From positions 1 to 51,193 of IMG/VR virus record IMGVR_UViG_3300030099_004204: a stretch of DNA of 51,193 nt. One strand, given 5' to 3'. The position numbers and the translations under genes were made by a program. The notes beneath the pieces are model-generated. The model saw only the letters and a program-made list of their open reading frames with translations. It searched no databases and was not told the DNA's origin. Source of the DNA: a virus. Positions 16,654 to 48,891 of the stretch are shown here, in pieces (within the stretch, counting starts at the first letter, position 1; every line of letters begins with the position of its first letter).

Positions 16654-17583
16654 ATGGCATATATAAACCAAAAAAAATATTATACAAATGACGGTGTAAA
16701 TCCTACTAATACTAACTGGGGCTCATACCAATTTGTAAGTTTAGAGGACATAGTAAATAATTTTGAACTTATGTATTATGGTAATCATTCTTTGATTAAT
16801 AACGAACCACGATACAAAATATTATTTCATGCAAAAAGAGGTATACAAGAACTAAATTACGATGCATTTAGAGAAATAAAATCACTTGAGCTTACTGTAT
16901 ATAGTGATTTAAAATTTATTTTACCATCTGATTATGTTAATTGGGTAAGGGTATCCTTATTTAAAGATGGATATATAAGACCTTTAGTTGAAAATATACA
17001 AGTTAACACAGCTCTATCTTACGTGCAACCAAATGCTTCATATCCTAACACTGGTGTTCCAGACTTTACTGGGAATGATGCCACTGTTGACACTTCTACT
17101 TTAGATACAGAAAGATTAAATGGTCAACTAAAAAGTATTTATTTAAACAGAGAAAACACTGATGATGAGATACCCATTGATTCACAAGGCAACTTGTATT
17201 TTGATTATACAATAGGTGCACGTTATGGATTAAATACTGAGACGGCAAATATCAACCCAACTTTTAGAATAGATAAATCAGCTGGTGTAATTAATTTTGA
17301 TTCCACAATGGCAAACGAAAATTGCATTTTAGAATATTTATCTGATGGTATGGAAGCGGGTGATGATTCTAAAGTTTCAGTAAATAAATTGTTTGAAGAT
17401 TATATTTATGCATACATAGAGTACGCTATATTGAATAGTAAATTCAATGTTCAAGAATATATAATTAATAGAGCAAGGAAAAGAAAATCATCGTTACTAA
17501 GAAATGCAAAAATAAGATTAAGCAATATTCATCCAGGTAGATTACTTATGAATCTTCGTGGAGAGAATAAGTGGATTAAGTAA
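16654..17583 (+). CDS. Tail tube/adaptor protein (gp11-like position)
   Basis: 309 residues. Residues about 55-110 contain FHAKRGIQELNYDAFREIKS and LKFILPSDYVNWVRVSLFKD, a pattern I recall from connector/tail adaptor proteins of Bacteroidota phages (a helix followed by an 'LP.DYV.wvR' strand). The C-terminus is basic (NRARKRKSSLLRNAKIRLSN). It follows the previous connector gene and its stop overlaps the ATG of the 1752-residue tail protein by one base. The order resembles the tail adaptor - nozzle pair of T7-like phages, but that is inference. Confidence 0.55.
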   Translation: MAYINQKKYYTNDGVNPTNTNWGSYQFVSLEDIVNNFELMYYGNHSLINNEPRYKILFHAKRGIQELNYDAFREIKSLELTVYSDLKFILPSDYVNWVRVSLFKDGYIRPLVENIQVNTALSYVQPNASYPNTGVPDFTGNDATVDTSTLDTERLNGQLKSIYLNRENTDDEIPIDSQGNLYFDYTIGARYGLNTETANINPTFRIDKSAGVINFDSTMANENCILEYLSDGMEAGDDSKVSVNKLFEDYIYAYIEYAILNSKFNVQEYIINRARKRKSSLLRNAKIRLSNIHPGRLLMNLRGENKWIK

Positions 17584-20500
17584 TGGCAAACATTCAAAGA
17601 AATTTTATACGAGGGCGAATGAATAAAAGCCTTGATGAAAGGCTTGTACCAAACGGCGAATATATTGACGCTCTTAATGTAAGGTTGGGTTCAACTGAAG
17701 GTTCTGAAATAGGTTCAGTTGAAAATTCAAAAGGTAATACTTCCTTGACAACTTTGATGTTTAATGAAATAGAAGTAAGCAATAATGCTAGATGTATTGG
17801 TGCTTTTGAGGACGGTGCTAATGAAACATTATATTGGTTTGTGCATGACCCGTCTTTTCCATTAGGCTCTACAAGTAAATTAGACCTTATAGTTTCATAT
17901 AATACAAATGACAACTCTTTAACTTATCACGTTATAAGTATTGATGATGGAACAAATCTAAATACTACATTAAACTTTAGCCCACATCATTTAATTACAG
18001 GTATAAATTTAGTGGACAATGAATTGTTATTTTTTACTGATAATTTAAATCCTCCACGTTACATAAATGTTAATAGACGATACAGCGTACCTGTAAATAA
18101 TTTAGATAATTTTAGCGCTGAGTCTTTGCTTGTAATTAAAAGACCACCTATTGAAGCACCAACTTTTCAGGCTTTAAATATTGTAGGACAACAAGATGAC
18201 TTTTTAGAAGATAGGTTTATATGTTTTGCTTATAGATATAAATATGCTGATAATCAATATTCAGCGACTTCACAATTTAGCAAAGAAGCATTTAGCCCAG
18301 GGTCATTTAATTTTAGTTATAACAGCTATTTAAATGAAGGTATGAAAAATACCAAAAATGCTGCTATTATTACATTTAATTCAGGTAGCTCGTTAGTTCA
18401 GGGAATACAATTATTATTCAAAGAATCAACTACAAACAATATAAAAGTAATTGAATATTTAGATAAGAACAATTTAGGATATTCCGATAACACAAACTAC
18501 ACTTACACTTTTGATAATAGTCAAATATTTACACTTCTTCCTGATTCTGAATTATTGCGTTTATTTGACAATGTACCTCTTGTAGCTAAAGCTCAAACTT
18601 TGATGGGCAATAGGTTAATGTATGGAAACTATAAAGAAGGTTATGATTTAAAAGATAAGTTTGACCAGGATATAAAGCTTGAATTTTCTGCTGCTTTAAA
18701 CTCTACAGTTATTGATAGTTCTTCATTATTAGATTCTACAGGCGGTGGTAATTATACGTTCGGTCCTACACCTGTTACTGTGCCTAACTCTGTTGTTTAT
18801 TTTGATTTATCAAATCAAAACGGAACTACTTTAGAGCTTACTGCTGGTTCAAGTATAACGCTTGACTTTACTATTTTACATAGTCAATTTACTGGCACAA
18901 CTCCTACAGCACAAACAGGAAGTACAACATTAGTTTTTGACTATACATTACCTATAGATTTTAATAATGTATATGATTTGGCAACAAGCACAGATTTTAT
19001 AGAAAAAATAGGTACATCTTCTAATATACAATCTGTAACGAATGCATGTAATGGCTCTACTCTTACTGACCAAGTAAATTGTGCTTTACCTGCCACTCTT
19101 GGAACTTACACAAAAACTGCAAGTGGTATCAACGCTACTGGAGAACCAATAAATATTATTGCTTCACCTGCTAGTAATACCATTGGTCTACAACTAATAG
19201 CTATGAATTATGTAGATGGAGGTAATAACTCATACGAGTTTTATGCGGTAAGTGCAGCTACGGCTACATTTGGCACAGCAAGTTCACCAAGTAGTTTACA
19301 TAGTAATAGAGGCTATGAAATTGGTATTGTGTATATGGATAATTTTAACAGAGCTTCAACTGCATTAGTTAGTCCTAACAATTCTGTTTACATACCATGC
19401 TCAAACTCAATTAACAAAAATGATATTAGAGTTACAATACCACAACAACAGCTAGCTCCTAGTTGGGCAACAAGGTATAAGCTTGTTTTAAAACCATCAG
19501 AATCTACATACGAAACTATATTTACTAATATATATTATGAAGACCCAGCTAGCAATGCAACCTACTTTTTACTTGAAGGAGAAAACGCTAATAAAGTAGA
19601 AGAAGGAGATAGATACTTTGTAAAATCAGACAGTAATGGTCCGATTCTAAGATGTGTTGAAGCTACTGTGTTAGAAAAAAAATCTCAAACTGCAAACTTT
19701 ATTACAGTTTATGATAGTGCGCAAAACCAAATACAAGTTCCTGCTGGAACTTATATGAAAATAAATCCTAGTAATTTTTCTACTACTGTTATTGAAAACG
19801 ATGTAGTTGCTGAAGGCAGTCAAACAGTTCAAGAAAACTCTTCTGGTGATTATCCAATACTTGCATACCCTATTAATTTACCACCACCTTCTGGTACAGG
19901 TAATTATGTAGATTACACTGTGCCTGCTGGAAGTAGAATTAATATAAGTATAAGACAAGAAAGGCTTGGACCTAATCAAGGTGATGGAAACTGCGAAAAA
20001 AGAATTAACACTATAGATGTAGAGCTTATAGCCTCACAAGATTATGCAAATATGTCTGAATGGTTTTATGGTGATAACGTGTCTACTGTATTTACAAACA
20101 GAGCAGTAAGCGAAGTCGGTGGTAACGGTAGTCCTGTTGTAAATACATGGGAAGCCGCAACTAGCGGCACTGGAGCTCCAGATACCTCATCTCCTAGTTC
20201 AGATATTAGCACTGCTGTTGACACGAATTACTACAGAACATATAGAAACAACACTACTAATGAATTATTCTTATTAGTAACAGGAACTGTTAGGTGCGGT
20301 GGTGTTGCATCAAGAGCTAAAAGGCGTAGCTCTGTCACAGTAGATATTGAAGTGTATCGTTCAGGCTCTGTGATAGCATTTGAAACTCAACCTGCTGATG
20401 CATCACCAAGCATATGGTATGAAAATCATTTATCTTTTCCTATTAGCGCTGATGGTATGCATACAGGTAACGTGCAAACACAAACATCTAGTCAATCAGC

Positions 20501-22841
20501 TATAGTAGATTCTGAGTTTTCAAATTGTTACACGTTTGGAAATGGCGTGGAAAGTTATAAAATACTAGACTCTTTAACAGGCAAAACTAAAAATTTTGGA
20601 GAACGAGTTACTTCAACTTCTAATATGGATTATAAAGAAGAGCATCGTTTTGCTGATATTACTTATAGTGGCGTGTTTAATGATGAGTCAAATGTTAATA
20701 AGCTTAACGAGTTTAATTTAGGTTTGTTAAATTTTAAACCACTAGAAGAATCCTACGGTCCGATACAGCTTTTAGATGGCAGAAAAACAGACATACTTAC
20801 ACTTCAAGAAGATAAAATTTCTTATGTTTTAACAAAGAAAAATTTATTAAGTGACTCAACAGGTGGAGGAGCAGTTACTTCTGTTCCTGAAGTATTAGGA
20901 ACGCAAATAGCTAGAACTGAAGAATACGGTATAAGCGAAAACCCTGAAAGTTACTCTACTTACGGTCCTAATAAATATTTTACAGACGCAAAAAGAGGCG
21001 CTGTAATAAATCTTATAGGTAGCGAAATGAGTAATGAACAGCTTCGAGTAATATCAGAAGCTGGCATGCGTGGTTGGTTTAGAGATTTATTTATTAGAAC
21101 ATTTAACACACAAAAACTTGGAGGGTTTGACCCTTACATGAATGAGTATGTTTTGCACTCAAATGTACAATTACCACAACCATCTACTGATTGTTTTCAA
21201 TGTAACACCAATAGAGACTTAACAGTTTTGCCAGGGCAAACTTTTAGTTACTGTGTTGATTTAGAAAATTTATTAGGAATTGTAGATATAGATTTTGTAA
21301 TACCCTTTCAAGGTTTCGACAATATAGTTACTGAGCTCAACTCAAACACAGTAACTGAAACTAATAGTAATGAGATTGTAGCTGAAACCACTATTAGTGG
21401 CGTAGGATTTACAATAACAGCTGTTTACAATGGTGTTTCACATACCACAGGTGTTGTTTATCAAGACGGAACTTTATCATTTAATAAAAATAGCGTTACA
21501 GCGGATAAGGTGCAAATAAATGTTTCTCACGATAGCACATCAGCACAAACAATAGATATAACAACAGGATGTCCACAAGCAGCAAGCATGACGGTATTTA
21601 ATGTAGCTGTCACCAGTAATGCTGATGCATCGCAAAGAATTACAAATGTTTATAGCTGGACTGATGGTAGCTTTACTTCTAATGAACACTCATCTTTAGT
21701 AACCTTTTCAAGTAGCAACACCAATCCTATAGTATCTCAATATACACAAGTAAATGGCTCTCAAGGAGGAGGTATAATTCCAGGAGATGGAGCAACAGTT
21801 TCTATTATAAGTAGAAAAAACTCAGGAGACAATTTTGTTTTTGATGCATCAAAAAATAAACTTAGATATTTAAGAACTTCAACTTTTTATGACAATAATG
21901 CTACAGATATAAATGCTTTATTGTCTGCATCGACTAATGTTACTCCTATATCAAGTCAGACTAATCCAAACCAATTTGTTGCAAACTTTACTTTGCCAGC
22001 AGGTGGTAGCTTTTTGTATATAATTTGGGATTACAGAAAATCAAACTCTCAAAAACTTTGTTATTCATCAACTAGCACTACTGATGCGTGTACAGGTTGT
22101 ACATTTCCACCTGTTCCCGCACCTACATCTCCTGTGCCAGTAACACCTGTGTATAGATGGCTTATCGAATCAGGAAGTGGTAGCACAACTAGCCCAACGA
22201 CTTGTCCAAATGCTTCAGTGCCTATATATAGCACTGCAAGTTCGTTTGCGACTACATTTGCAAATAGCACTGTTTTTTATACTGATGCTGGACTTACAAC
22301 GCTTTTTCAGGGAGGAAATAATTATTTTGGTGTAAGAGAACCAAATCAAGGTTATGGTCAGTCACAAGGTATTATGAGAATGACTAATTTAGGAACAGCT
22401 TCTAATATAGACACTGCTGGAGTTTGTAATCCAAATCCCACGCCTGTGCCTGTGCCTGTACCTGTGCCAGCGCCAGTATCACCCACGCCAGTGCCTGTAC
22501 CTACAACACCTGTTCCAGCGCCCGCAGCGAGCACTACAGCATTTACTATGACAAGCATAAATACTTATTGGTCTAGCCAAATTGATGCTTGTAACAATGG
22601 TCCGTCAGCATCTATGCAAACTTACTATCATAACGGAGTAGGCTCATGTCCTCAAGGAGCACCTGGTAACCAAAATATAATTTATATAGATGCGGCAGGC
22701 ACAACAAAACTATCAGATGTAGTCAATACAGCTGGAAGATATTATTTTATACCATCTAGTGTTTGCTTTGGAATAGGAAACGGACAGATTATACAAATTG
22801 ACCCAAATAATGGAATCATAAACACAAGAATAAATTGTTAA
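17583..22841 (+). CDS. Giant tail protein, nozzle-like N-terminus with C-terminal Pro-rich appendage modules
   Basis: 1752 residues. The N-terminus (RNFIRGRMNKSLDERLVPNG, then DALNVRLGSTEGSEIG) resembles the opening of podovirus tail-nozzle (T7 gp12-like) proteins. The body is beta-rich and Asn/Thr/Ser-rich, as in a propeller or fibre. The C-terminus changes character: a short Pro-rich linker at about 1508-1523, a Cys-containing module with VFYTDAGLTTLFQGGNNYFG, a long Pro-Val/Ala/Thr linker at about 1617-1650, and a final module with IYIDAAGTTKL. Related modules and linkers appear in the genes at 22843 and 27292. Likely function: distal tail tube with surface-exposed appendages. Confidence 0.65.
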   Translation: MANIQRNFIRGRMNKSLDERLVPNGEYIDALNVRLGSTEGSEIGSVENSKGNTSLTTLMFNEIEVSNNARCIGAFEDGANETLYWFVHDPSFPLGSTSKLDLIVSYNTNDNSLTYHVISIDDGTNLNTTLNFSPHHLITGINLVDNELLFFTDNLNPPRYINVNRRYSVPVNNLDNFSAESLLVIKRPPIEAPTFQALNIVGQQDDFLEDRFICFAYRYKYADNQYSATSQFSKEAFSPGSFNFSYNSYLNEGMKNTKNAAIITFNSGSSLVQGIQLLFKESTTNNIKVIEYLDKNNLGYSDNTNYTYTFDNSQIFTLLPDSELLRLFDNVPLVAKAQTLMGNRLMYGNYKEGYDLKDKFDQDIKLEFSAALNSTVIDSSSLLDSTGGGNYTFGPTPVTVPNSVVYFDLSNQNGTTLELTAGSSITLDFTILHSQFTGTTPTAQTGSTTLVFDYTLPIDFNNVYDLATSTDFIEKIGTSSNIQSVTNACNGSTLTDQVNCALPATLGTYTKTASGINATGEPINIIASPASNTIGLQLIAMNYVDGGNNSYEFYAVSAATATFGTASSPSSLHSNRGYEIGIVYMDNFNRASTALVSPNNSVYIPCSNSINKNDIRVTIPQQQLAPSWATRYKLVLKPSESTYETIFTNIYYEDPASNATYFLLEGENANKVEEGDRYFVKSDSNGPILRCVEATVLEKKSQTANFITVYDSAQNQIQVPAGTYMKINPSNFSTTVIENDVVAEGSQTVQENSSGDYPILAYPINLPPPSGTGNYVDYTVPAGSRINISIRQERLGPNQGDGNCEKRINTIDVELIASQDYANMSEWFYGDNVSTVFTNRAVSEVGGNGSPVVNTWEAATSGTGAPDTSSPSSDISTAVDTNYYRTYRNNTTNELFLLVTGTVRCGGVASRAKRRSSVTVDIEVYRSGSVIAFETQPADASPSIWYENHLSFPISADGMHTGNVQTQTSSQSAIVDSEFSNCYTFGNGVESYKILDSLTGKTKNFGERVTSTSNMDYKEEHRFADITYSGVFNDESNVNKLNEFNLGLLNFKPLEESYGPIQLLDGRKTDILTLQEDKISYVLTKKNLLSDSTGGGAVTSVPEVLGTQIARTEEYGISENPESYSTYGPNKYFTDAKRGAVINLIGSEMSNEQLRVISEAGMRGWFRDLFIRTFNTQKLGGFDPYMNEYVLHSNVQLPQPSTDCFQCNTNRDLTVLPGQTFSYCVDLENLLGIVDIDFVIPFQGFDNIVTELNSNTVTETNSNEIVAETTISGVGFTITAVYNGVSHTTGVVYQDGTLSFNKNSVTADKVQINVSHDSTSAQTIDITTGCPQAASMTVFNVAVTSNADASQRITNVYSWTDGSFTSNEHSSLVTFSSSNTNPIVSQYTQVNGSQGGGIIPGDGATVSIISRKNSGDNFVFDASKNKLRYLRTSTFYDNNATDINALLSASTNVTPISSQTNPNQFVANFTLPAGGSFLYIIWDYRKSNSQKLCYSSTSTTDACTGCTFPPVPAPTSPVPVTPVYRWLIESGSGSTTSPTTCPNASVPIYSTASSFATTFANSTVFYTDAGLTTLFQGGNNYFGVREPNQGYGQSQGIMRMTNLGTASNIDTAGVCNPNPTPVPVPVPVPAPVSPTPVPVPTTPVPAPAASTTAFTMTSINTYWSSQIDACNNGPSASMQTYYHNGVGSCPQGAPGNQNIIYIDAAGTTKLSDVVNTAGRYYFIPSSVCFGIGNGQIIQIDPNNGIINTRINC

Positions 22842-22842
22842 A

Positions 22843-23490
22843 ATGGCAACACTAGCAACATATTATTTTGATACAGCAAGTTTTACAAACGCAACAACTA
22901 TTTATGATGATGCGAATTTAACTACTATATCACAAAATGGATGGTATTCAGATGACAGTATTGTAAGGCAACAAATAAGTGGTGTTTTAATGGCAGCACA
23001 ATCATGTAGTATTCCTACACCAGTTCCTACACCTACAGCGCCAATACCTGTGCCTGCACCTGTATCACCTACTCCAGTTCCGAGTCCTGTGCCTAGCCCT
23101 GCTCCTACATCACCCGTGCCTGCACCAGTAGCGCCTAGTCCTGTGCCTAGTCCTGTTGCACCTAGTCCTGTGCCAACAGCCCCTGTGCCCGCACCAGTAG
23201 TAGCTCCACAACCTGTGCCTGCTCCTGTTGCTCCTGTGCCTGCTCCTGTTGCGCCTTCACCAGTACCTGCACCAGTAGTACAATGTTATGCTATAAGTGT
23301 GCAAAAAGGCAGTTATGTTTGTTCTGGTTCTTATTCAGTGCATTATTTTGATGCGTCAAGTTTATCAGCAGCAACTACAGCTTATGCAAACTCAAGTTGT
23401 AATTCAAACGCTAGCGCAGGATATTATAGACAAGGGTTATCATACAGATATTGGAATGGTTCTAGTTTTACGTCATCAGGTAGTTGTTAA
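22843..23490 (+). CDS. Proline-rich (PVPxP repeat) tail appendage protein
   Basis: 215 residues. Residues 58-147 are an uninterrupted low-complexity linker of Pro alternating with Val, Ala, Ser and Thr (P at almost every second position). It is flanked by two related small modules: residues 5-45 (YYFDTASFTNATTIYDD) and 148-215 (HYFDASSLSAATTAYAN), each with a Y/H-Y-F-D-x-(S/A)-S core. Cysteines at 55, 148, 160, 186 and 215 could form disulfides. It starts one base after the 1752-residue gene, whose C-terminus is built the same way. The linker is a plausible substrate for the prolyl-hydroxylase-like enzyme encoded 10 bases downstream. Confidence 0.65.
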   Translation: MATLATYYFDTASFTNATTIYDDANLTTISQNGWYSDDSIVRQQISGVLMAAQSCSIPTPVPTPTAPIPVPAPVSPTPVPSPVPSPAPTSPVPAPVAPSPVPSPVAPSPVPTAPVPAPVVAPQPVPAPVAPVPAPVAPSPVPAPVVQCYAISVQKGSYVCSGSYSVHYFDASSLSAATTAYANSSCNSNASAGYYRQGLSYRYWNGSSFTSSGSC

Positions 23491-23499
23491 TTTAATTAA

Positions 23500-24111
23500 A
23501 TGGTTTTAATAAAAGAAAAAAGAGATTACATCCCTTACGACCCTAGTCCTTTGCAAAAAATAACTAGGGCAACTAAAAAGGGGTTTCAAGTATTAGATGT
23601 TCCACCAGCAGTTTATAGTATTCTTACTGAATTTTATGACAGAAATAAAATGCACGAAGAAAACTATGCTGGAAAGGAAAATTATTCAAAACAAGTAAGT
23701 TATCTACAAGACATAAACCAGTTTGGAGATAGAGTTGCTTTTATAAAAGAAACAATGTTAGACTTACACCAAGAGTGGTGTGGTAGAAAATTAAAACCAG
23801 CTGTTGTTTATGGAGTCAGAAGTTATAGCGCTAATACTATTTTTAACGCTCATTTTGATAGACAAGATACGCACCATGTAGCCTCTAGTATAACACTAGG
23901 AAAAGATGCTCCTTGGAATCTCAATATTCAAGACCATGATAATCAATGGTGGGGTGTAGATGTTGAACCTGGACAAATGATTATGTTTGAATCAGGGTGC
24001 TGTATGCACGGAAGGCTAGACGAATACAAGGGAACGTATTTTGATAATTTATACACGCACTTTACTTATGAAGAACCTTTTGAGGAATACCAAGAAAGTA
24101 TACATATATGA
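23500..24111 (+). CDS. 2-oxoglutarate/Fe(II) dioxygenase, prolyl 4-hydroxylase-like
   Basis: 203 residues. The double-stranded beta helix core is readable: VVYGVRSYSANTIFNAHFDR, with the H-x-D iron ligands His118 and Asp120; then HHVASSITL, WNLNIQDHDNQWW, VEPGQMIMFESGCCMHGR with the distal ligand His170; and basic Lys177 positioned to bind 2-oxoglutarate. The E-P-G-x-M-x-x-F-E-S-x-x-x-x-H-G-R stretch is characteristic of the P4H family. Predicted reaction: hydroxylation of peptidyl proline using O2 and 2OG. It lies immediately after a gene for a 90-residue proline-rich segment and before a glycosyltransferase, suggesting tail-protein modification. The substrate is inference. Confidence 0.75.
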   Translation: MVLIKEKRDYIPYDPSPLQKITRATKKGFQVLDVPPAVYSILTEFYDRNKMHEENYAGKENYSKQVSYLQDINQFGDRVAFIKETMLDLHQEWCGRKLKPAVVYGVRSYSANTIFNAHFDRQDTHHVASSITLGKDAPWNLNIQDHDNQWWGVDVEPGQMIMFESGCCMHGRLDEYKGTYFDNLYTHFTYEEPFEEYQESIHI

Positions 24112-24202
24112 ATCACCTGATAAAGGTAAAACTATTTACAGAAGAGAATTTGGTAATTACGATAAAAAAGAATTAATCAAGTCGCCTAATAGTGAAAAAT
24201 AG
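24080..24202 (+). CDS. Micro-protein between oxygenase and fucosyltransferase genes
   Basis: A 40-residue frame from TTG 24080 to TAG 24200-24202, overlapping the oxygenase end by 32 bases and the fucosyltransferase start by 11 bases. The sequence reads KKVYIYESPDKGKTIYRREF then GNYDKKELIK, a compact protein-like pattern that I recall as a recurring short protein in marine phages. An alternative ATG frame at 24107 encodes only 22 unremarkable residues. The start codon is uncertain. Function unknown; its tight packing in the enzyme cassette suggests co-expression. Confidence 0.45.
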   Translation: MRNTKKVYIYESPDKGKTIYRREFGNYDKKELIKSPNSEK

Positions 24203-25256
24203 GTACATATCTTTTGATTGGTGGTGGGGTGGTTTTAATAATATTCGGATGTGCTATGAAATGGTTGGTGCTATGTCATATGTGTCAGGCAGAAAAATTA
24301 TATTACCACCTCCAGGATATTGTTTGTTTTTATCAGAACATCATGACAAAAAAACTTTTTGGGATATATGGGAAATATTAGATAAAAAGGCTTTTACTGA
24401 TAATTTTGATTGCGTTGATTATCAAGATACTGAGCTTATAAAATATTCTTCAGATAAACAAAATTACGAAGGCATCTGTAATGATATTAAATGTATTTTA
24501 TTTAACGATGAAGACATTAATTGGGGTCCTCAAAAGTTTATAGGTAAAGGTTTAATATACCACAGCATCGAAGACATAAATCATTTTAACAATTTTAATT
24601 GTGATAATAGAGAGTTTTTGTATGATATTATGTGCGATGATGAGATTATACATTTTCCAAGAAATTTATTAGGGCATTTTGGTTATCACGTCTATCCTCC
24701 AAACGATATGGCACGTAGAGTTATACAGCAAAAAATAAAAAGAGGTGTAAAGTTTCAGGATAAATACATTCAAAAAGCAAGAGAAATTATGCAAGGAGAC
24801 TATGATGCTGTGCATATACGTAGAGGCGATTTCAAATATACACAAACTCAATGGACAGAGGAGATGTATGATAATCTTGAATCGCTTCTTGATGTAAATG
24901 TAAGAAAATCAGTACCTTTATACATAGCAACTGATGAACCTGACTTGTCTATGTTTGATTTTTTAAAAACAAAATATAATACTATATTTTTAAAAAACAT
25001 AACACAGGTTGAAATGGCTGAAGGATTGGTTCTTGACACTTTAATATGCGCTAATGCATATAATTTTTTTGGTTCAAGGATGTCAACCTTTTCAGATTAC
25101 ATTAATATAATTAGAGGATATAATAATAAAATCGATAATCATAGAAAGTCTTTAAATTTTGAAAGACCGAAAATAAAATACAATAAATACCCCTGGGAAG
25201 TTGAGCCTTATAATTGGCAAGACTTGTGGGGTGAATTATATTATGGCAAAATTTAA
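24192..25256 (+). CDS. GDP-fucose O-fucosyltransferase-like glycosyltransferase
   Basis: 354 residues from GTG 24192. Three O-fucosyltransferase (GT65/GT68-type, PF10250-like) signatures are visible: an N-terminal WWWGGFNNIRM (nucleotide-binding G-G-x-x-N-x-R), a central YDAVHIRRGDF at about 205-214 (the H-x-R-R-G-D donor motif), and a C-terminal FFGSRMSTFSDY at about 291-302 (S-x-F-S). No membrane anchor is present, so it acts in the cytoplasm. It would transfer fucose or a related sugar to a protein or glycan acceptor. It overlaps the carbamoyltransferase gene by 14 bases. Alpha-1,2-fucosyltransferase-type acting on glycan is the alternative. Confidence 0.65.
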   Translation: MKNRYISFDWWWGGFNNIRMCYEMVGAMSYVSGRKIILPPPGYCLFLSEHHDKKTFWDIWEILDKKAFTDNFDCVDYQDTELIKYSSDKQNYEGICNDIKCILFNDEDINWGPQKFIGKGLIYHSIEDINHFNNFNCDNREFLYDIMCDDEIIHFPRNLLGHFGYHVYPPNDMARRVIQQKIKRGVKFQDKYIQKAREIMQGDYDAVHIRRGDFKYTQTQWTEEMYDNLESLLDVNVRKSVPLYIATDEPDLSMFDFLKTKYNTIFLKNITQVEMAEGLVLDTLICANAYNFFGSRMSTFSDYINIIRGYNNKIDNHRKSLNFERPKIKYNKYPWEVEPYNWQDLWGELYYGKI

Positions 25257-26703
25257 TTTAGGGATACACGGGTCTCATAACGCTGCAATAGCAATTTCAT
25301 ATGGTGGAGATATTTTAGAAGTGGTTGAGCTTGAAAGATGGGTGCAAGTTAAAAACGCTGCATTTTTTTATTATCACCCTATACTTAATCCTATAGAAGT
25401 TCTTAATGAAATACTAGATTATTTTGATTTTAAATATCAAGCAAAGCGTTATGATTTTGCAATGATAAACTCATTCCCACAAGAACATTACAAAGATTTA
25501 CGTGCAGATAACGTGGTATATGTGCCACACCATGAAGCTCATGCTTGTAATGTTATGTATCATTCTAGTGCTTTAGAATCACTTATAGTTTCATTTGACG
25601 GTGGTTCAGATAATGGACATTTTAATATTTATTTAGGAACAAAAGGACAACCCTTACAATTAATACACCAATCAAATAAAGACCTTTGCGTGCCCTATGC
25701 AGCTTTAGGTCATTATATGGGTGATATAGTTAGAGAAAGAGATTGGTGGTTTGGTAATCTTGCTTATGCTGGAAAGGCTATGGGGCTCTCTTCTTATGGT
25801 AAAAGAGATGACGAGCTTTTTAATTATGTAACCCAGTTATATGACAGAAGTGTTACAAACAAAGTTGATGAAACGCATAATAACTGGGCAGAAATTTTTT
25901 GTGGTTGTCATCAAAAAGAACAAAAATCAAAAGATTTAGCATATGCCAACCAATATATGTTTGAGAAAAACTTTGCTGATATTGTGCTTCCGTTTAAATT
26001 TCAATATCCAGATAGAGAGTTGCAGTTTACAGGTGGTGGTGCAATGAATATATTAAATAACACTACTTACAAGGCTTTTGTGTCTCCAAACTCTGATGAC
26101 AGAGGTATTGCATTAGGCTGTTTGCTTAGTCTTATAAAACCAATGAATCCTGTTGATAGCACCTACTTGGGTTCAGAGCCCTATGATGATATGCCAGAGG
26201 CAAAAGAGATTACAATAAAACAAGTTAGAGACATGCTCGACCAAGATAAAATTATTGGGTTGATACAAGGCAGGGCAGAACACGGAGCAAGAGCTTTAGG
26301 TAATCGTTCTATATTGTGTATACCAAAACAAGGCGTAAAAGACAGGCTTAACGCAGACGTAAAAAAAAGAGAATGGTTTCGACCTTTTGCTGCTGTGTGT
26401 AGAGAAGAAGATGCTAATTTATTTTTTAAAGCTTACGGACTACACCGATGGATGACACATAATGTAAAAGTAAATACTGATGCTTTTCCTGCTATTACAC
26501 ACGTAGATAAAACCTGTAGATTACAAACTGTAACTGAAAATCAAAATAAATTTTTATATGATTTATTACAATACCATCCTGTATTATTAAATACTTCTTT
26601 TAATATTCAAGGTAAACCCATACTAAATACATATAAAGAAGCAATGTGGATGAAAAACAATACAGGTGTTGATGAAATAATAACCGATAAATATATATTA
26701 TAA
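25243..26703 (+). CDS. NodU/CmcH-type carbamoyltransferase
   Basis: 486 residues from ATG 25243 (a TTG 14 codons upstream is less likely). The N-terminal domain starts LGIHGSHNAAIAI and has VPHHEAHACNVMY (96-106) and SFDGGSDNGHFNIY (117-130), the ASKHA-fold catalytic signature of carbamoyl-phosphate-dependent O-carbamoyltransferases. The C-terminal Carbam_trans_C domain is marked by GRAEHGARALGNRSIL and WFRPFAAVCREE. It should place a carbamoyl group on a hydroxyl of a sugar or similar acceptor. Neighbours are a fucosyltransferase-like and two oxygenase-like genes, so the acceptor could be a protein-bound glycan. Its TAA overlaps the next ATG (TAATG). Confidence 0.85.
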   Translation: MAKFNLGIHGSHNAAIAISYGGDILEVVELERWVQVKNAAFFYYHPILNPIEVLNEILDYFDFKYQAKRYDFAMINSFPQEHYKDLRADNVVYVPHHEAHACNVMYHSSALESLIVSFDGGSDNGHFNIYLGTKGQPLQLIHQSNKDLCVPYAALGHYMGDIVRERDWWFGNLAYAGKAMGLSSYGKRDDELFNYVTQLYDRSVTNKVDETHNNWAEIFCGCHQKEQKSKDLAYANQYMFEKNFADIVLPFKFQYPDRELQFTGGGAMNILNNTTYKAFVSPNSDDRGIALGCLLSLIKPMNPVDSTYLGSEPYDDMPEAKEITIKQVRDMLDQDKIIGLIQGRAEHGARALGNRSILCIPKQGVKDRLNADVKKREWFRPFAAVCREEDANLFFKAYGLHRWMTHNVKVNTDAFPAITHVDKTCRLQTVTENQNKFLYDLLQYHPVLLNTSFNIQGKPILNTYKEAMWMKNNTGVDEIITDKYIL

Positions 26704-27245
26704 TGTTAAAAAAAATAAAACTAGATTACGATTGGAGTTATTTTTTACCTCCAAAACAAGATTATACTGTACATAAAGGCAGCTGTTTGACGCATCAAAC
26801 TAAAGAACTTACAGACATACATGAAGAATATGGCTTGGGTGAAACTTATACTTTTGACAATACAGTCATACAACAGCTTTGGTATACAAATAAAGAATTA
26901 GACTTTGAAGAGCTTGGAAAACAAACTGGTATGGAAGTAATTACTGTATCAAGTATTTTACAACCTCCAGGCAATGTAATTGCTTTGCATAGAGACACGT
27001 TTTATCAAATCAAAAAAAAGTTTCCTAATGATAAAAGATTAAAAGTACGTGCAAATATTTACTTAGAAGATTGGAAAGTTGGGCATATGTTACAATATAA
27101 GTCTGAAGAAGATAACATTTGGAAAACTTCTGATAATTGGAATGCTGGTGATGGGTATATATGGGATGCAAAACCTTTGCACCTTTCTGCAAATGCAGGC
27201 ATGAAAAACAAGTATACACTGCAAATCTCAGGCTTTTTGCTTTAA
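26703..27245 (+). CDS. 2OG-Fe(II) oxygenase-like protein (aspartyl/asparaginyl hydroxylase type)
   Basis: 180 residues. LQPPGNVIALHRDTF gives an H-x-D pair (His96, Asp98), followed by KVRANIYLEDWKVGHML, NAGDGYIWDAKPLHLSANAG with a distal His160, and KNKYTLQISG with Lys170 as a candidate 2OG ligand. The P-G-x-x-I-x-x-H-x-D arrangement resembles the Asp/Asn beta-hydroxylase branch more than P4H. It is coupled to the carbamoyltransferase (TAATG) and closes the enzyme cassette. Likely a second hydroxylase in the same modification route; the substrate is unknown. Confidence 0.6.
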   Translation: MLKKIKLDYDWSYFLPPKQDYTVHKGSCLTHQTKELTDIHEEYGLGETYTFDNTVIQQLWYTNKELDFEELGKQTGMEVITVSSILQPPGNVIALHRDTFYQIKKKFPNDKRLKVRANIYLEDWKVGHMLQYKSEEDNIWKTSDNWNAGDGYIWDAKPLHLSANAGMKNKYTLQISGFLL

Positions 27246-27259
27246 AACAAGCAAGCGAT

Positions 27260-27275
27260 TAAATTTGTAAATTTG
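27260..27275 (+). promoter_or_regulatory. Tandem TAAATTTG boxes upstream of third Pro-rich gene
   Basis: Two adjacent TAAATTTG octamers occupy 27260-27267 and 27268-27275, the second followed by TAG, 16 bases before ATG 27292. Both match TAnnTTTG. The duplication may give two start points or simply reflect local repetition. The box would let the proline-rich gene be expressed independently of the modification cassette upstream. Confidence 0.5.
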
Positions 27276-27291
27276 TAGCTAAATAAATCAT

Positions 27292-29136
27292 ATGTCTTTT
27301 TATTATCAGTTACAAAGTTGTGACAACTCAAGCGTTATAGTTGACGCTCAGTTTCAGACTCAACAAACTATGAATCAAGTTTATTTGATTTATGGTTTAG
27401 CTTCTGGTCAAGGAGTTGGTAATTGTTGGAAAGTATATGGTTTAGCAAACTCAGGACAATTTGTAAACCCTATAACGGATTATGGAATAAACGGATGTTC
27501 TAGTTGTAATGCGCCTGCCCCTGCACCTACCACAGTTACTTCGTATGCTTGGCAGTTCAATCAAGTTCAAGGTAATGGTAGTTTTGTAAAACCAACTTCT
27601 TGCACAAACTGTCCTGTTACCGTTTATTCAGATGTAAATACTTATAATAATGTAGTTTGTGGCACACAACATTTTTGGCTTGACGCTAATCTTACAACTC
27701 CATTTAATGGAAGTAATCAATTTTACATTGCTACCCCTGGAAGCACACCTGCCACAGGAACAGGTATGCTTCTTATTGAACCTAACGGAACTGTTACAAA
27801 TAAATATGATTGTAATGGTGCTAACATTTGTTTTGGTCCTGCTCCTACTCCAGTTCCTACAGCACCAGTTCCTTCGCCAGTTCCTACAGCACCAGTTCCT
27901 TCGCCAGTACCTGCTCCAGTAGCTCCAAGTCAACCAGAATATTGTTTACAATCTACAAACGCAGTAACATTTCAAGTAATTGGAGGGGTAAACAAATATA
28001 TTTTTGGTGGAAATTATGGGGTTTATGGTAGTGGAACAGGAGTTTTTGTTCTTACAGGAATACCTTCAACACATCCTATAGCATTTCAAAATTTTGGTAA
28101 AACATCTTCATTTCAATATGAGGGTCAGTTTAGTGTAGGCACCAAAACAGGACAAGACGGTAACACATATGAATATTTTTATGGTGATGTAACTATAACT
28201 GTTACTGGAGCATATGGAATTATTGGATATGAGTGTTATTATCACGGATATATGGGCGGACAAAATAATTTAATGTTTGATAATGTTATTTGTCCAAACT
28301 TACAGCCACCCATCATACCTCCACAGGGCGACCCATCGTTACAATACACTTTGACTTATAGTGATAGTGTTCAAGGGTGGGCTTCTTTTTATTCTTATTT
28401 TCCAGATTGGATGATAGGAATGAATAATTATTTTTACACATTCAAAGCAGGTAATTTATATAGACACAACACAAATGATACAAGAAATAATTATTACAAT
28501 GTTCAATATAACTCCACACTAACGAGTGTATTTAATGAGCAACCGCTTGAAAATAAACTATTCAAAACAATAAATTTAGAATCTGATAAACCTTGGTCCG
28601 TAACTCTTGATAGTGATATACAAACTGGAGCATCTATAGACTACACTTGGTTTGAACAAAAGGAAGGAGCTTGGTTTGCTTTTGTCCGTAACAACGGCAC
28701 ATTGCCTGCTGCAACTTCAGAGTATCCTATGCGTTCAGTAAATGGTATTGGAAGAAGCACTTCGGTTACAATTATTGGAACAACTACTATTATAAATTTT
28801 GCAACAGACCCGCTTATAGTTATTGATGGGGATTTGAGTGTTGGCGATATTATTTATTTTGCTTCGCCACCATACAATTCAGTTGAAATGGCAGGTCAAG
28901 TAACTGCAATAAGTATAGACTTGCAAAATAATACAAACAGCATTACTATTGATAATTCTATTACAGGAGCTGTAGCCATATCTTTACAAGATGGATTTAT
29001 AATGTATATAAAAAATCAACAGGCAGAATCTAACGGAGTGTTAGGTCATTACTGTCAGTTTACAATAACAAATACAGATACTACAGCCACTGAACTGTTT
29101 GCTGTTGAATCGGAAGTAATGAAAAGCTATCCGTAA
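27292..29136 (+). CDS. Cys-containing, proline-linker virion protein (tail appendage)
   Basis: 614 residues. The N-terminal module (1-75) has CDNSSVIVDAQFQTQQTMNQ and GINGCSSCN. A second module (about 80-178) contains TSCTNCPVTVYSDVNTYNNV and FWLDANLTTPFNGSNQFY, clearly related to a module of the 1752-residue tail protein. Residues about 181-216 are a Pro-Val/Thr/Ser/Ala linker. The rest (about 217-614) is beta-rich, including a segment resembling a cupredoxin-type fold (GYECYYHGYMGG near 320) and a C-terminal virion-like beta domain. It shares the architecture of the genes at 17583 and 22843. Surface-exposed tail appendage is likely; the central fold is uncertain. Confidence 0.6.
   Translation: MSFYYQLQSCDNSSVIVDAQFQTQQTMNQVYLIYGLASGQGVGNCWKVYGLANSGQFVNPITDYGINGCSSCNAPAPAPTTVTSYAWQFNQVQGNGSFVKPTSCTNCPVTVYSDVNTYNNVVCGTQHFWLDANLTTPFNGSNQFYIATPGSTPATGTGMLLIEPNGTVTNKYDCNGANICFGPAPTPVPTAPVPSPVPTAPVPSPVPAPVAPSQPEYCLQSTNAVTFQVIGGVNKYIFGGNYGVYGSGTGVFVLTGIPSTHPIAFQNFGKTSSFQYEGQFSVGTKTGQDGNTYEYFYGDVTITVTGAYGIIGYECYYHGYMGGQNNLMFDNVICPNLQPPIIPPQGDPSLQYTLTYSDSVQGWASFYSYFPDWMIGMNNYFYTFKAGNLYRHNTNDTRNNYYNVQYNSTLTSVFNEQPLENKLFKTINLESDKPWSVTLDSDIQTGASIDYTWFEQKEGAWFAFVRNNGTLPAATSEYPMRSVNGIGRSTSVTIIGTTTIINFATDPLIVIDGDLSVGDIIYFASPPYNSVEMAGQVTAISIDLQNNTNSITIDNSITGAVAISLQDGFIMYIKNQQAESNGVLGHYCQFTITNTDTTATELFAVESEVMKSYP
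27850..27903 (+). repeat. Perfect 27-bp tandem duplication in proline-linker coding sequence
   Basis: A 27-base unit beginning CCAGTTCCTACAGCACCAGT occurs twice without mismatch at 27850-27876 and 27877-27903. Each copy encodes nine residues (PVPTAPVPS) in frame. The identity of the two copies points to recent slippage or duplication, showing how the linker length can change. Confidence 0.9.
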
Positions 29137-29157: not shown

Positions 29158-29559
29158 ATGAAATTAAATATTAGACCACTGGAAGAATCTGACTATGAGC
29201 AGATTTTAGTAGGTTGGTGGAAAGACTGGAATTGGACACCACCAGAAAAAGATTTTTTACCAGACAATGGTACAAGTGGTCTGATAGTATATGACAAAAA
29301 AACACCTGTATGTGCAGGATTTATATATATGACAAACTCAAAAGTAGCTTGGGTGGATTGGATAATATCTAATAAAAAATATAAAAACAGAAAAAGCGCT
29401 TTGACTTTTTTAATTAATGCATTGACAAACGCAGTAAAATTATCAGACAAAAAATTTTCCTATGCACTTATAAAACATGATGGTCTTATAAAAACATATG
29501 AAGAAGCTGGATACATTCAAGGCGATAGTTACAATAAAGAAATGATAAAAATATTATAG
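29158..29559 (+). CDS. GNAT-family N-acetyltransferase
   Basis: 133 residues, a typical single GNAT domain length. The N-terminus KLNIRPLEESDYEQI is the standard GNAT beta1-alpha1 start. The central strand GFIYMTNSKVAWVDWIISN leads into a basic stretch (KYKNRKSAL) in place of the acetyl-CoA pyrophosphate loop, and the C-terminal KTYEEAGYIQGDSYNKEMIK matches the family's 'YekaGF' motif. From memory, similar small GNATs are common among tail and ejection genes of marine phages. The acetylated target is unknown; a virion protein or host factor is possible. Confidence 0.7.
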   Translation: MKLNIRPLEESDYEQILVGWWKDWNWTPPEKDFLPDNGTSGLIVYDKKTPVCAGFIYMTNSKVAWVDWIISNKKYKNRKSALTFLINALTNAVKLSDKKFSYALIKHDGLIKTYEEAGYIQGDSYNKEMIKIL

Positions 29560-47850: not shown

Positions 47851-48891
47851 TTATAAATTAAAGTGAGTTAATATTTCATTCTCTGAAAACCATTGGTCGC
47901 ATCCGTTACAATGGTAGTTACTAAAGCCATCGTGTTCTAAATCTTGATAGCAATTTGCACACATAGGCGATTCCTCTACTATGTATTCTTCACATCCAAA
48001 GGCATCATCATATTCAAAGCTAAACTTCTCTACACTAGGTAGCCTTGTTGATTGCTCATAGGTATGGTGTAATACTTTGTTGTCGGAGTTCTCTACTATA
48101 TTAAAGTAAGTCCAACAAGTATACGTTTTGCCATTGACCTTGACTTCTATCTCCTCTCTTTTGTACCAAGTAGGATGACCTTCAAGCCTGTCTATGTTGC
48201 TAAGTGTAGCATCTGAAACACTAAACACATCTACCTCTACATTGTAGCCTTTACCTTTCTCGTTGATTAGATAGGGCAGACCCTGTATTATCAAAGGATA
48301 TTTACTAGCAGTTACACCCGTTCCTATATGGTTTGAGTTCTTTAAGTAGTGATTGTAATTGCTATACCCTTTCTTTAACGTGCCATATACTGCAAGTAAA
48401 TTGTCTTGCAATACATTAGTCTTGGAGTACCACACCCCATCTTTGTGAGTGTACAAATGTTTGTTGTAAATCTGAAAGCTACGATTGCGAGTATTGATAG
48501 TAACAAAACGACAAGTGTACTTCGCTAGTCTAGCTTTCCAAGTTTGCCTAGGTATGTTACCTAGCATACGTGCTAATACTTTGGTGTCACAAGTGGTGAC
48601 ATCTCCGAGTTCAGTAATCGTTCCGTTCATCATCAGCAGTTCATCTTTGTTACTGCCACATACAAAGGGATGAGTGTTGTCTCGATTGACAAGACCTTTC
48701 GTAGCATATCTAAAGTGTGCTATAAATGGTCTCTCTGTATTTAATAGCTGATACTCTTTTGATTTATGATAAGATACTTCAAATGTATCTAGCCATACTA
48801 CACCAAGTCCGTGAGGATTAATCCTTGCAGAGTTCTTAAGTATACTACTTGCAATGGTGTTGGATTTCTGTTTGATAATAATAATACACAT
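47851..48891 (-). CDS. Class II glutamine amidotransferase - gamma-glutamylcyclotransferase - zinc ribbon fusion
   Basis: 346 residues with three domains. (1) Residues 1-155: Ntn-type GATase II, with Cys2 as N-terminal nucleophile after Met removal (MCIIIIK), PHGLGVVW, FIAHFRYATKG and DNTHPF. (2) Residues about 164-265: AIG2/BtrG-like gamma-glutamylcyclotransferase, with LLAVYGTLKKGYSNYNHYL and IDRLEGHPTWYKRE, where Glu237 is the candidate catalytic acid. (3) Residues 311-331: C-x2-C-x13-C-x2-C zinc ribbon. Both enzyme types act on glutamyl amide bonds, so the protein probably supplies ammonia and/or trims gamma-glutamyl groups in the pathway of the amidoligase encoded at 50023. Cytoplasmic; no signal peptide. 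Confidence 0.75.
   Translation of the reverse strand: MCIIIIKQKSNTIASSILKNSARINPHGLGVVWLDTFEVSYHKSKEYQLLNTERPFIAHFRYATKGLVNRDNTHPFVCGSNKDELLMMNGTITELGDVTTCDTKVLARMLGNIPRQTWKARLAKYTCRFVTINTRNRSFQIYNKHLYTHKDGVWYSKTNVLQDNLLAVYGTLKKGYSNYNHYLKNSNHIGTGVTASKYPLIIQGLPYLINEKGKGYNVEVDVFSVSDATLSNIDRLEGHPTWYKREEIEVKVNGKTYTCWTYFNIVENSDNKVLHHTYEQSTRLPSVEKFSFEYDDAFGCEEYIVEESPMCANCYQDLEHDGFSNYHCNGCDQWFSENEILTHFNL

Follow-up and report, generated by a model that had tools for sequence, protein, structure and literature searches.

A probable tail modification cassette in a crAss-like phage

The IMG/VR virus record IMGVR_UViG_3300030099_004204 (51,193 nucleotides; this entire stretch is referred to as the window) is classified as a 51-kb fragment of a crAss-like phage of marine origin, related to the crAss phages of the gut. 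Between genes for proline-rich tail proteins it harbours a cassette of four enzyme genes (23500–27245) coding for two 2-oxoglutarate (2OG) oxygenase-like proteins, a GDP-fucose protein O-fucosyltransferase family (OFUT) enzyme and a NodU-type O-carbamoyltransferase. The cassette probably represents a phage-encoded pathway for modifying the Pro-x-Pro (PxP) linkers of the phage's own tail-tip proteins, a reading to which we assign a probability of about 60 %. The pairing of such enzymes with PxP linkers recurs in unrelated phages, one of which is already in culture. An initial annotation, based on this locus alone, had named the phage's own linkers as the substrate of the enzymes. The link between the two is now strongly supported, far better than a single-locus guess, by three samplings of loci, by transfer of the cassette to a divergent tail backbone and by linker-free relatives that lack the cassette; the sequence hydroxylation–fucose–carbamate given there is inferred, and the sugar need not be fucose.

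In the proposed pathway, one or both of the 2OG/Fe(II) oxygenases (encoded at 23500 and 26703) would hydroxylate the P-x-P linkers, with proline as the most likely target residue. The OFUT would add a sugar, fucose being the likeliest one, either to the hydroxyl thus created on hydroxyproline (Hyp) or to linker Ser/Thr, and the carbamoyltransferase would then carbamoylate the attached sugar. The tail tip may thereby gain a glycosylated polyproline spacer that is stiff and resists proteases, similar to the arabinogalactan/extensin glycomodules of plants. A more far-reaching version, which we hold tentatively and at slightly less than even odds, is that widespread phage operons, horizontally spread among crAss-like phages, cyanophages and others, turn tail-tip P-x-P linkers into Hyp-linked, O-carbamoylated glycan rods, a system that would be the prokaryotic equivalent of the hydroxyproline-rich glycoproteins of plants.

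Tail-tip linker genes

Affiliation with Crassvirales-like phages is evident from the terminase, portal, capsid and tail genes, which are homologous and keep their order; the structural genes are matched by PHROG families. The terminase matches that of ctfjg026 (Manatee Spring) at 76 % and that of an Elemovirus of Flavobacterium at 45 %. All genes of the cassette region are present in the order and on the strand (plus) initially reported, and the four enzyme genes indeed lie among three genes for PxP-bearing tail proteins, with successive junctions from 17583–22841 to 27292–29136 of +1, +9, +80, −14, −1 and +46 bp. A scan for promoters and terminators yielded no more than expected by chance.

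The first linker gene (17583–22841) encodes a large tail protein of 1752 aa (phrog_14478, virion structural protein, E 1e-230), whose N-terminal 744 aa are conserved in crAss-like phages and whose C-terminal part contains two PxP linkers (aa 1510–1522 and aa 1619–1647, the longer one encoded at 22437–22523, plus strand). It is followed by the gene for a small tail protein of 215 aa (22843–23490, plus strand), which consists of an N-terminal module, an 87-residue PxP linker (aa 58–144) and a C-terminal module; the linker is retained in the homologue at locus L193 and missing from those at L217 and L256. Downstream of the enzyme genes, a tail-tip protein of 614 aa (27292–29136, plus strand) combines N-terminal modules, a PxP linker (aa 183–215) and a C-terminal crAss muzzle domain (PF25729, crAss_MUZ_C, E 4e-17). 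Neither this domain nor the crAss-like nature of the phage was mentioned in the initial annotation. Since the muzzle of phi-crAss001 closes the tail end (PMC10172136), the PxP linkers of the window are probably located at the tail tip. No sequence matches to the tail proteins were found in the PDB.

PxP motifs (x being V, A, S or T) were counted against shuffles of each protein's own composition. Counts amounted to 15 in the large tail protein (shuffle mean 1.5, maximum 6), 27 in the small one (mean 3.4, maximum 11) and 12 in the tail-tip protein (mean 0.9, maximum 6), while the remaining 22 plus-strand genes listed contain 0 or 1 each. Ser and Thr occupy 29–36 % of the non-proline positions of the linkers. 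Proline codons within the linkers are mixed (CCT, CCA, CCC and CCG) and the repeats are therefore not the result of simple DNA slippage; this mixture argues for selection on the protein.

A small gene (29158–29559) located between tail genes is kept in phages with and without the cassette; its positional counterpart in ctfjg026 bears the annotation N-terminal acetyltransferase subunit.

Enzymes of the cassette

Both predicted transferases were assigned as initially annotated. The OFUT (354 aa; 24192–25256, plus strand) matches PF10250 with E 2e-12 and 47.7 bits (cut-off 31.5), carries the motif HIRRGD at position 208 in agreement with HxRRxD, and has POFUT2 as best solved relative (E 4e-5); no relatives were found in bacterial genome contigs. 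The carbamoyltransferase (486 aa; 25243–26703, plus strand; phrog_1601, E 3e-99) contains both domains of the NodU/TobZ type above cut-off (PF16861, E 2e-45, 155 bits; PF02543, 38 bits) together with the intact signature motifs SHNAA, RALGNRS and LNTSFN. Its solved relatives are TobZ, GdmN and novobiocin carbamoyltransferase; the substrates of known NodU/TobZ enzymes are Nod factors and antibiotics. The ATG at 25243 (MAKFNLGIHGSHNAA) is a preferable start to the TTG at 25201, where the mechanically called open reading frame (ORF) begins.

The product of 23500–24111 (203 aa, plus strand), initially described as similar to prolyl 4-hydroxylase (P4H), could not be identified as a prolyl hydroxylase. 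Alignments, a hidden Markov model and a structural model indicate a 2OG-oxygenase-like protein of the 'HGR' type with conserved R107, H118xD120, H170 and R172. Residues H118, D120 and H170 of the HxD…H iron triad are invariant among 19 sequences. Unlike in P4H, an invariant Arg (R172) follows the distal His at +2, and no conserved Lys or Arg was found at +9/+10. Neither did the protein match any Pfam family, nor did a profile of 19 homologues retrieve a P4H from the PDB. The AlphaFold model (predicted local distance difference test score, pLDDT, 85) matches EctD, Pseudomonas putida P4H and PHD2 at template modelling (TM) scores of 0.5–0.6, as well as AviO1 and HygX, oxygenases of sugar-antibiotic pathways. 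The protein is homologous to the second domain of two-domain P4H proteins of phages, and is thus a relative of the P4H partner domain, not recognisably a P4H itself; the initial label came close in spirit without fitting this protein. A recent split from such a two-domain protein was considered and rejected, the tree placing the window clade on a long outside branch that lacks resolution. Matches to phrog_2954 and phrog_3531 carry the label 'ferrochelatase' (cyanophages), which looks wrong for a 2OG-oxygenase-like protein.

The second 2OG-oxygenase-like protein (OX2, 180 aa; 26703–27245, plus strand) bore out its initial description. In its alignment H96, D98 and H160 are invariant and K170 nearly so, the latter standing at +10 from H160, a spacing shared with the P4H domain of relatives. 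Neither Pfam nor PHROG families matched the protein, and the AlphaFold model (pLDDT 79) has P. putida P4H as top PDB match at a TM score of only ~0.5. Profile comparison detected no relation between the two oxygenases, and the idea that they form one family was dropped. Prolyl hydroxylases are among the oxygenase-fold matches of both models, and either protein could be the prolyl hydroxylase of the window. Three cassette-less homologues of OX2 (L065, L067 and L069) have radical-SAM-like, fucosyltransferase-like or amidinotransferase-like neighbours (judged by eye).

A 2OG oxygenase combined with a glycosyltransferase and a carbamoyltransferase also recalls the logic of phage DNA hypermodification, in which the oxygenase would hydroxylate a base to be extended by the two transferases. 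That the cassette serves such DNA or nucleotide modification is nevertheless very improbable: the oxygenase models match hydroxylases of proteins and small molecules, with TET/JBP not among the listed matches, the O-fucosyltransferase family acts on proteins, and the location within the tail module and the linkage to PxP would be left unexplained.

Genuine prolyl 4-hydroxylases in relatives

The tail gene of L193 is 67 % identical to that of the window, which forms the first row of the profile used for sampling. L193 shares the linker gene with the window; behind it lies a gene for an oxygenase of two domains, the first being a genuine P4H and the second homologous to the 23500 product. The first domain of such proteins (L193, L046, L047 and others) matches PF13640 in 11 out of 11 cases, retrieves solved P4H of a bacterium (E 3e-23) and of Chlamydomonas (E 1e-17), and possesses H92xD94, H161 and K171 (+10) as invariant residues in 11 phage sequences. 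Cultured phages with a two-domain P4H were not found in the phage collection.

Co-occurrence of enzymes and linkers

Co-occurrence was determined in three samplings; these include related phages, hence the p values are indicative and overstate independence. In the first sampling, a profile of the tail protein N-terminus yielded 80 loci, 40 of which combine a long main gene with 2 kb or more of downstream sequence. PxP runs occur in six of these 40: four encode a P4H, L224 is truncated, and L213 lacks a P4H. With L224 left out, P4H is present in 4/5 linker-bearing vs 0/34 linker-less loci (Fisher, p 6e-5). The second sampling started from P4H (80 loci, 66 clusters at 90 %) and revealed linker genes in 24 of the 34 clusters with two-domain P4H vs 5 of 32 single-domain clusters (p 7e-6); for 13 of these 24, the distance to the linker gene is no more than 100 bp. 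The third comprised 48 loci picked solely for an ORF with PVPAPVPAP, three of which (L023, L117 and L175) encode P4H, OFUT and carbamoyltransferase. A P4H, a PxP substrate and a glycosyltransferase are encoded together in L046, L117, L175 and L234; in the window, the P4H of this combination is putative.

Several observations weigh against a dedicated linker-modifying pathway. The true P4H domain is absent from the window clade, including window-type contigs of 59 and 65 kb. Homologues of OX2 occur also apart from the cassette, near other sugar or radical-SAM-like genes. The cassette is missing from 45 of the 48 PxP loci. Furthermore, eight loci (L053, L055, L059, L061, L302, L310, L312 and L319) carry a two-domain P4H or the full cassette with no linker gene in the fetched stretch; most of them are fragments. 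Cassettes devoid of a Pro-rich virion protein had been named initially as evidence against the proposal: several fragments indeed have no linker within reach, and the sole complete cassette-bearing genome examined, that of cyanophage S-SCSM1, does encode such proteins (see below).

The use of PxP as a general marker of the cassette was discarded on the grounds of the same 45 cassette-less loci.

Conservation and transfer of the cassette

The gene order linker gene–23500–OFUT–carbamoyltransferase is kept in seven IMG/VR contigs, with OX2 likewise in place where the contigs reach that far. In L005/L008 the enzymes are 76–88 % identical to those of the window, while the tail backbone is merely 25–37 % identical, in pieces, and still holds 33–35 PxP; the cassette has therefore moved between backbones. 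In the cassette-less phages ctfjg026, Elemovirus, phi13:2 and Gundel_1, no PxP run was present in the stretches read and no alternating-Pro pattern over the whole records.

Fusions between the enzymes, namely of OFUT to carbamoyltransferase (L023 and L117) and of OFUT to a 23500-type domain (L040), as well as the fusion of an O-fucosyltransferase to PF11397 in L046, support a common pathway. The operon of L046 comprises a linker gene, a two-domain P4H, an O-fucosyltransferase fused to PF11397, a second PF11397 gene, a carbamoyltransferase and OX2; we take PF11397 to be the family of the Skp1 Hyp GlcNAc transferase. In L024, a tail protein with immunoglobulin-like repeats and a (PT)n and PEPEPV tail is encoded at a locus which also has OFUT, P4H, GT4 and GT9, and L027 and L028 contain a similar PxP gene directly upstream of OFUT.

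The PTPAP linker protein of L046 (6274–7830) ends in a collagen-like GPPGPPGPPGPP stretch. In the cultured jumbo phages XacN1 (L359, 9792–13509) and RAS14 (L360, 11486–15303), a PF11397 gene adjoins a carbamoyltransferase gene, and a giant protein containing short runs of Thr/Ser-Pro is encoded ~6–9 kb away; P4H and OFUT were not detected in the 25 kb read.

The cultured cyanophage S-SCSM1

S-SCSM1 is the only carrier of this OFUT among the GenBank phages searched (whole-record check, 13 records). Its OFUT (36 %) adjoins a 23500-type oxygenase, a carbamoyltransferase and GDP-fucose genes in a cluster of the order OX-OFUT-HGR-CARB (L014, 20204–28302), which also holds mannose-6-phosphate isomerase, GDP-mannose dehydratase and GDP-fucose synthase. 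Two PxP tracts were detected with x not restricted to V, A, S and T: a 109-residue alternating tract with abundant Arg, Gln and Asn residues in QFG06275 (annotated as virion protein VrlC; L019, 23462–31273), and a 23-residue tract ending the baseplate spike QFG06481, labelled virion protein, which is absent from the six spike homologues read. Over the whole record, 56 plus-strand pattern matches were counted in S-SCSM1 vs 0–4 in eight other cyanophages. With these tracts, S-SCSM1 was dismissed as a counterexample possessing the cassette and lacking PxP. Virion proteins of this phage have been identified by mass spectrometry (PMC9602691). The phage offers a testable substrate in culture. The S-SCSM1 cluster, which includes GDP-fucose genes of its own, resembles that of the window in its homologous OFUT, 23500-type oxygenase and carbamoyltransferase and in the presence of PxP tracts, here in annotated virion proteins; it differs by linkers rich in Arg, Gln and Asn instead of Val and Ala, and by enzyme genes that are not adjacent to the linker genes.

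The authors of the S-SCSM1 study assigned OFUT, GMD and FCL to cell-wall synthesis (PMC9602691). In line with this, the cassette might alter the host surface (O-antigen or capsule), e.g., as a barrier to superinfection, and its position within the tail genes would then be no more than a convenience of late expression. NodU-type genes are common in phages, and the cyanophage version of the cassette lies near glycan genes. We nevertheless regard this as rather unlikely, for P4H tracks PxP linkers in tail genes, linker-less relatives have no P4H, and no genes for polysaccharide export or nucleotide sugars were found among the window genes scanned.

The acceptor residue

If the enzymes target the linker, the sugar is likely to be attached to Hyp, because OFUT occurs together with linkers poor in Ser/Thr. 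L023 encodes P4H and the OFUT-carbamoyltransferase fusion along with a PVPAPVPAP linker in which 97 % of the non-proline positions are Ala or Val and only 3 % Ser/Thr, and the linkers of the OFUT-bearing L006 contain just 11 % Ser/Thr. Linkers of OFUT-bearing phages are also poorer in Ser/Thr than those of OFUT-less phages, though the small sample (12 vs 4 values, p ~0.01) makes this weak evidence.

These figures, and the association with bona fide P4H, for which it offers no role, speak against the alternative that the glycans reside on Ser/Thr instead of Hyp, with the sugar or different residues as oxygenase substrates and PxP being merely the carrier linker. Several facts lend this alternative some weight: O-fucosyltransferase relatives such as POFUT2 act on Ser/Thr, the window linkers are comparatively rich in these residues (see above), and the 23500 model matches EctD, AviO1 and HygX. 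Moreover, L217 and L256 have only a PF11397 gene beside their linker-free small tail gene and possess neither P4H nor PxP, and in L213, the single P4H-less locus among those with a linker, Thr dominates the linker and PF11397 and another glycosyltransferase are encoded. On balance we consider this alternative unlikely, yet the most plausible of the competing explanations. The linker of L213 (10236–13394) is of the PTATPTQTP type, with a Gly_transf_sug gene, and perhaps represents a Ser/Thr version of the same idea.

Relation to known systems

Glycosylation of hydroxyproline is known above all from eukaryotes, where it serves to make extracellular proteins stiff and protease-resistant. The plant and algal hydroxyproline-rich glycoproteins (arabinogalactan proteins and extensins) share with the phage linkers the alternating A/S/T/V-Pro repeats, and their P4H belongs to the same family as that of the phage relatives (see the Chlamydomonas match above). 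Plants employ arabinosyl- and galactosyltransferases in the secretory pathway, whereas the phage operons encode an O-fucosyltransferase-family enzyme and a carbamoyltransferase, plus PF11397 in relatives. In plants, non-contiguous prolines of Ala-Pro and Ser-Pro repeats are hydroxylated and glycosylated (PMC5266747). In Dictyostelium, a cytoplasmic P4H acts on Skp1 prior to glycosylation of the Hyp (PMC3515798); the PF11397 family links this pathway to several phage relatives, the window itself having no PF11397 gene. Skp1 modification differs in that a single proline of a soluble regulator receives five sugars and no carbamate. Chlorella virus PBCV-1 encodes a P4H of its own, the suspected substrates of which are viral proteins, as cited in PMC9301287; PBCV-1 is a eukaryotic virus for which no operon with O-fucosyltransferase and carbamoyltransferase is described. 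Within the open-access full-text literature searched, no paper was found that joins phage, prolyl 4-hydroxylase and O-fucosyltransferase.

The 2OG oxygenases and NodU-type genes of marine phages are usually classed as auxiliary metabolism; linker modification, if true, would explain part of this large and so far unexplained gene stock.

Elsewhere in the window, a minus-strand gene (47851–48891) codes for a gamma-glutamyl cyclotransferase-like protein (PF06094) with weak similarity to glutamine amidotransferases.

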